A stretch of 64,000 nucleotides of DNA from Phycisphaeraceae bacterium (GTDB lineage: Bacteria; Planctomycetota; Phycisphaerae; Phycisphaerales; Phycisphaeraceae). Position numbers and translations under genes: made by a program. The notes beneath the pieces were generated by a model. The model worked only from the letters and a program-made list of their open reading frames with translations. It was not told the DNA's origin and ran no database searches. Below, one piece after another: positions 34,054 through 36,931 of this stretch. Where the stretch lies: contig JAJDCS010000028.1 in assembly GCA_029260715.1 (NCBI GenBank), positions 62,001 to 126,000 of the forward strand. Direction: 5' to 3'. Position 1 is the first letter of the stretch. Every line of letters begins with the position of its first letter.

Positions 34054-34482
34054 CTAACCCGCTGCGGCTTGCCGGCCTCGCAGCACCGTTGGCAGGCTTC
34101 GGACCAACCCTTCGTTCGCGGGCGGGAATCGGTATTCGCTTAGCTGACTGGGCCGCACCCACCGGTGCTCCGCCACGCCGATATTCGTTGGCCGACCCGA
34201 CTCAAGCGAACACAAAAACGGATTCAGCCGCACCGTCCCGTGGTCGTATTGGTAATCGATCGCGTCGAGCGATTCGCCCACGCGCACCGTCACCCCCAGT
34301 TCCTCTTCAAACTCGCGCACGAGGCACCGCCGCGTTGTTTCGCCCGGTTCAACCTTGCCGCCTGGGAATTCCCAGTAGCCGCCATACACCGAGCGATCAG
34401 GCCGACGCGAGATCAAAACAACAACCTCACCGCCCTGAACCCTCACCAGCACCCCCATCGCCACCTCAATTGGGCTTGTCAT
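34054..34482 (-). CDS. Nudix hydrolase, MutT-like
   Basis: A 142-residue protein with a complete Nudix box, GGKVEPGETTRRCLVREFEEELG (pattern GX5EX7REUXEEXGU), on a MutT-like fold preceded by YGGYWEFPGG. MutT-type enzymes hydrolyse 8-oxo-dGTP to protect DNA, but substrates of Nudix proteins cannot be assigned from the box alone. Short length fits MutT. It is the convergent neighbour of the sensor phosphatase gene, and the gap upstream holds a small-RNA candidate on the opposite strand. Confidence 0.85.
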   Translation of the reverse strand: MTSPIEVAMGVLVRVQGGEVVVLISRRPDRSVYGGYWEFPGGKVEPGETTRRCLVREFEEELGVTVRVGESLDAIDYQYDHGTVRLNPFLCSLESGRPTNIGVAEHRWVRPSQLSEYRFPPANEGLVRSLPTVLRGRQAAAG

Positions 34483-34675: not shown

Positions 34676-34705
34676 TTGACAGCGGTCCGAAACACCCGAT
34701 ACGAT
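34676..34705 (+). promoter_or_regulatory. Promoter of the orphan small RNA
   Basis: A perfect -35 TTGACA (34676-34681), an 18-base spacer and TACGAT (34700-34705, four of six -10 bases) predict transcription starting near 34711. There is no coding gene between this and the terminator at 34774-34820. Confidence 0.55.
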
Positions 34706-34710
34706 TGATA

Positions 34711-34820
34711 GAAGCCAGCCGGAGCCTGACGCTCTAAAGCAAATGACATGCTTTCGATTGTCAGCCGTGGCGCGCCTCCGCCAGCAGGATCGGAGCCCTG
34801 TGGCGGAGGCTCTTTTTTTT
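34711..34820 (+). ncRNA. Candidate small RNA with own promoter and terminator
   Basis: An orphan unit in the roughly 470-base gap between the Nudix gene and trmD, both on the minus strand. The promoter boxes predict a start near 34711. The transcript folds into a nested hairpin (CTGAC 34726-34730 with GTCAG 34760-34764; inside it AAAGCA with TGCTTT, 34736-34754) separated by a symmetric 5x5 internal loop, and ends in a perfect intrinsic terminator. No ORF of note lies inside. Size (about 110 bases) and layout fit a trans-acting or housekeeping small RNA. The SRP core motif is not seen. Confidence 0.55.
34774..34820 (+). terminator. Intrinsic terminator of the small RNA
   Basis: A perfect 10-bp stem GCCTCCGCCA/TGGCGGAGGC, extended inside by CAGG/CCTG, is followed by TCTTTTTTTT. 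The T-run is on the plus strand only, so it cannot serve the minus-strand genes on either side. Confidence 0.88.
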
Positions 34821-36768: not shown

Positions 36769-36872
36769 AACCCCTCTCCCCTTGAGGGAAGAGGCTGGGT
36801 GAGGGGTGAGAGCCTGAAAAAAACACGAACCCGACCCTCCCCTAACCCCTCCCTGAGAGGGAGGGGGATTTT
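36769..36872. repeat. Inverted pair of CCCCTC-rich palindromic repeats
   Basis: In the gap between kdsC and kdsD, 36769-36812 (CCCCTCTCCCC, short centre, GGGTGAGGGG) and 36833-36872 (hairpin CCCCTCCCT/AGGGAGGGG, 36846-36866) are similar sequences in opposite orientation. Each is bordered by a run of A or T on the inner or outer side. The layout matches widespread intergenic repeats of the CCCTCTCC type. The T-run at 36869-36875 could also act as a plus-strand terminator, but no plus-strand gene precedes it. Confidence 0.6.
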
Positions 36873-36931
36873 TTTGAAACGGCTTCCTATTTAAAAAAGA
36901 AGGCCGCTTTAATAAAGAAGTCCACATCGCC

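Follow-up and report, generated by a model that had tools for sequence, protein, structure and literature searches.

The segment 34676-34820 of the 64,000-nucleotide stretch of Phycisphaeraceae DNA analysed here (the window) is probably an independent gene of a Phycisphaerae small RNA family, the product of which would be independently transcribed, act in trans and not depend on Hfq. Its conservation, covariation, single copy, promoter, terminator and independence from the neighbouring genes are established computationally. The family is a new one of a known kind, the small RNAs, and appears to be previously undescribed. An earlier note, made from the letters of the window, had proposed a small RNA gene equipped with promoter and terminator and yielding a transcript of about 110 nt, and comparative evidence supports such a gene.

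Promoter, predicted transcript and terminator

Table 1. Features of the small RNA locus and its divergent neighbour, in window coordinates
Feature	Position	Strand	Basis and remarks
-35 element TTGACA	34676..34681	+	Sequence; conserved among relatives
-10 element TACGAT	34700..34705	+	TAGGAT or TACGAT in relatives; TATA[AG]T in other orders
Predicted small RNA transcript, about 110 nt	34711..34820	+	Start inferred from promoter; about 68-124 nt in relatives
5' nested hairpin, variable sequence, counterpart of H1 in relatives	34714..34771	+	Fold
Sequence-conserved core within GCCGTGGCGC; class form GCCGUGGC(G/A)C	34764..34773	+	Alignments A1, A3 and A5
Hairpin H2, terminator stem-loop	34774..34810	+	Fold; paired changes in alignments
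Apical-loop motif TCGGAGC, contains GGA	34790..34796	+	Invariant columns in A1 and A3
Terminator U-run, eight T	34813..34820	+	Sequence; T-run kept in all alignments
mutT-like Nudix gene, outside the RNA	34054..34482	-	TIGR00586, 98.8 bits against a cut-off of 97.9

The promoter TTGACA-N18-TACGAT (34676-34705) agrees with the consensus at 10 of 12 positions, and neither strand carries a second such site between 34480 and 34960. Judged from its sequence, it is a housekeeping, sigma-70-type promoter. Two such sites were found in 4 kb where 1.4 are expected in shuffles; the promoter by itself is at chance level, and the case for a small RNA therefore rests on conservation. The same chance-level match would suit an explanation in which there is no RNA gene, just a promoter-like sequence arisen by chance and a terminator that ends antisense transcription or read-through, but promoter, core and terminator travel together through about 100 genomes, and we find this explanation scarcely credible. 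A promoter score of at least 10/12 is reached by 47% of 99 loci in relatives and by 2.6% of shuffles. In the family, every one of the 25 loci with a promoter score of at least 9 has a spacer of precisely 18 bases. The promoter and 18-base spacing described earlier are therefore not only present in the window but conserved among relatives.

The fold of the predicted transcript (-51.6 kcal/mol, z = -3.7, none of 200 shuffles equally good) exceeds shuffles by 3.7 standard deviations, in agreement with the nested hairpin claimed for it. The terminator had been described as a 10-bp stem followed by eight T, and this is what the locus contains: the arms GCCTCCGCCA (34774-34783) and TGGCGGAGGC (34801-34810) form a perfect stem of 10 bp with four further inner pairs, and the stem covaries. 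A terminator scan with a loop limit of 8 did not report the 34774-34820 terminator, probably because its long loop exceeds that limit. The part upstream of the core is variable, measuring 19-76 nt in the home family. Over 95 aligned copies (A5), H1 is a short hairpin with GCCGUGG in its 3' arm; in other families it takes the form CGCGG..CCGUG with paired changes, while in the home family it adopts other registers, and in the window's copy the 5' end is paired to the core.

Distribution and covariation of the RNA family

The search comprised a DNA search of 60 relatives, which detected the conserved 3' module in most genomes of the same family, and then three covariance-model rounds (R1, R2 and R3). 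R1 gave strong matches in 36 of 51 Phycisphaeraceae genomes and extended detection to further families of the order; R2 gave matches in 114 of 301 genomes sampled for the order and, at the level of the class Phycisphaerae, in 116 of 397. Strict filters on large samples limit detection, so these fractions are lower bounds. The locus, formerly called an orphan, is thus wrongly named, since it belongs to a class-wide family. In R3, a phylum sample of 392 genomes returned no match outside Phycisphaerae, to which the family is, as far as sampled, confined by these model matches. The copy number is almost always one full-length match per genome. Four RNA-less genomes searched with the filters off held no diverged copy of the RNA beside mutT.

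Several single matches deserve mention. The named contigs bearing the DNA motif are labelled, almost without exception, Phycisphaeraceae, Phycisphaerae or Planctomycetota; one DNA-motif match lies on a contig labelled Burkholderiaceae (L048, CAJYPV010000027.1), which may be chance, a mis-binned contig or a transfer. Two near-identical RNA copies on short contigs of one genome (C139 and C38 of G010; L004 and L030) probably represent different strains that share a metagenome bin. Weak DNA matches of the first search outside the family (L027, L029) and in genome G003 (L028) had neither promoter nor terminator and were judged to be chance.

The core GCCGUGGC(G/A)C is unchanged across 95 aligned copies while the terminator stem varies, and the loop UCGGAGC is fixed, with minor variants, in the home order and also in family f11. 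The covariance model from homologous regions that had been suggested as a check was built over the three rounds, and it supports the structure. Two helices, H1 and H2 (the terminator), are supported in alignment A5 (95 copies), with both-sided changes in 12 of 13 pairs and a covariation score of 0.480; shuffled alignments reached 0.177 and slid structures no more than 0.112, so that both controls of the test for conserved secondary structure are exceeded; A5 is fitted to the covariance model and leans towards it. For H2, seven of the eight outer pairs have changed on both sides and 96.6% of cells are paired, and the family-only alignment A1, which was built without the model, gives the same H2 covariation. 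We regard the module as non-coding because it shows one-base length changes and, in some rows, stops in every one of the three frames, consistent with the claim that no reading frame of note lies inside.

Neighbouring genes

The small RNA sits between the mutT-like gene and trmD, which is convergent in the window. At 48 of 99 loci, spread over seven families, mutT is adjacent and divergent, and other orientations were never found; in the home family, mutT adjoins the RNA in all 23 RNA-bearing genomes with a mutT match. Such an arrangement could mean that the RNA regulates the divergent mutT or is co-regulated with it as a bidirectional partner. However, 13 of 36 RNA-bearing family genomes have no mutT match and seven of 15 RNA-less genomes keep one, co-occurrence in the home family is not significant (Fisher p = 0.35), and no conserved complementarity of the RNA to mutT leaders was found, so we consider this partnership very unlikely. 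In the window the core could pair through GCCACG with the ribosome-binding region of mutT, but relatives do not conserve this pairing and the idea was discarded. The mutT-like gene of one RNA-less relative contains an in-frame TGA (G071:C1:1449999-1450391, L200).

On the other side, 15 of the 20 loci that come from other orders have pyrK shortly downstream on the same strand, which raises the idea of a cis-acting leader or attenuator whose terminator controls the downstream gene, ancestrally pyrK. This idea is highly improbable: pyrK is downstream at none of the 79 home-order loci, the downstream gene is convergent at many of them, as trmD is in the window, and the 5' region is variable, with no conserved antiterminator seen. 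At loci L123-L136, L140 and L141, which belong to other orders of the class, the RNA directly precedes a co-oriented pyrK. The arrangement mutT-RNA-pyrK occurs complete at a few loci, and from this we infer that it is probably the ancestral gene order.

Because the RNA persists without mutT, without a downstream pyrK and with a convergent next gene, we interpret it as a gene of its own and not as the leader of a neighbour. A scenario raised in the earlier note, in which a longer transcript originating in the Nudix region ends at this terminator, was rejected as a misfit: the promoter directly upstream accompanies the RNA among relatives, many of which carry the RNA but have the Nudix gene elsewhere or not at all. 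Elsewhere in the window (36846-36876), the plus strand between two minus-strand genes carries CCCCTCCCTGAGAGGGAGGGG, an inverted repeat without mismatches, and then seven T; this may be a repeat element or a terminator.

Related RNAs and possible mode of action

A search of Rfam 15 for 6S, SRP or any other family, as had been advised, returned no family at its gathering score in the window, and loose thresholds gave nothing real for the locus and eight class-level loci. SRP RNA was dismissed as an identity for the locus on this result. So was 6S RNA (RF00013), a likewise single-copy bacterial non-coding RNA that differs from the Phycisphaerae RNA in size and shape; the same genome has a separate 6S gene outside the window (G000:C13:136452-136631, L193; 63.8 bits, above the cut-off), the only one above the cut-off among the 31 genomes searched, the others scoring below it. 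The resemblance to the Neisseria sigma-E small RNA nse_sRNA (RF02270) in the terminator stem GCCUCCGCCA is put down to chance: the match scores 17.7 bits (E = 2) where the family's gathering score is 75, which leaves homology unsupported.

The deep conservation over the class would fit a structural or housekeeping RNA too, namely a ribonucleoprotein part or a regulator of polymerase or ribosome instead of a regulator of selected mRNAs. A single copy throughout the class, a strong promoter and a fixed core and loop are in keeping with such a role; the RNA was, however, not found in several nearly complete Phycisphaeraceae genomes, and 6S is encoded separately, which makes this role quite unlikely.

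With bacterial intergenic small RNAs the locus shares the sigma-70-type promoter, 5' hairpin, conserved core, intrinsic terminator and a length of about 70-125 nt; it differs from them in general in that its hosts are without Hfq, in its conservation over a whole class of Planctomycetota and in having no known target. The Rhodopirellula-1 motif is listed as a candidate structured RNA of Proteobacteria and Planctomycetes (Weinberg et al. 2010, PMC2864571); by that listing it spans both groups, whereas the models of the Phycisphaerae RNA match nothing beyond the class, and the two are set apart by description only. A survey counted eight Rfam small RNA families for the entire PVC group (PMC9029176). 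A literature search, covering neither preprints nor most subscription journals, found nothing relevant on Phycisphaerae non-coding RNA.

We propose that the housekeeping-type promoter would start an RNA of about 110 nt consisting of a variable 5' hairpin, the core GCCGUGGC(G/A)C and the terminator hairpin, whose loop would display UCGGAGC in the home order. This RNA would act in trans and without Hfq, and the conserved core, the loop or both would contact target mRNAs or an RNA-binding protein. Hfq was detected in none of 41 genomes of relatives, although five control genomes were positive, and an Hfq-dependent small RNA was rejected on that account. Since the core does not change, it may be a seed for base-pairing or the place where a protein binds; in our view the likeliest mode of action is base-pairing with mRNAs, and binding would run via GCCGUGGC or via the GGA loop, which may be a site for CsrA. 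No target emerged: sequences exactly complementary to the core number 53 in the window's genome, not enriched over the 63 of the reversed control, and the few that lie near possible starts form no pattern.

CsrA is encoded in all 41 genomes, most often by two paralogues whose scores differ clearly, and 90 of the 99 loci have a motif with GGA in the loop region of H2, its sequence setting taking at least four forms (UCGGAGC, GUGGAUG, CUGGAGG and AGGAU). With Hfq absent, the GGA of the terminator loop might be a CsrA site through which the RNA titrates CsrA or cooperates with it. CsrB/RsmY-type RNAs likewise carry GGA in a hairpin loop, but they have several such loops while the Phycisphaerae RNA has one, with no enrichment in its 5' region (55 GGA observed against 49 +/- 6 expected), and a CsrA sponge of that type was rejected. 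The loops of five families (f8, f15, f17, f19 and f22) contain no GGA. The CsrA consensus has an A two bases before GGA, whereas the base at this position is usually U here. Taken with the single site, these points render CsrA binding unlikely.

Trans-acting regulation by an independent small RNA therefore stays our preferred reading. More speculatively, and with little confidence, the RNA could be regarded as class-defining in an Hfq-less lineage, its fixed GCCGUGGC core and GGA loop working with the universal CsrA; if so, the RNA would be a global regulator of the Phycisphaerae and its terminator hairpin would also serve for protein docking. Almost no small RNAs have been characterised in Planctomycetota, and a single-copy RNA retained across Phycisphaerae, the sampled members of which lack Hfq, offers a tangible way into the study of post-transcriptional regulation there.
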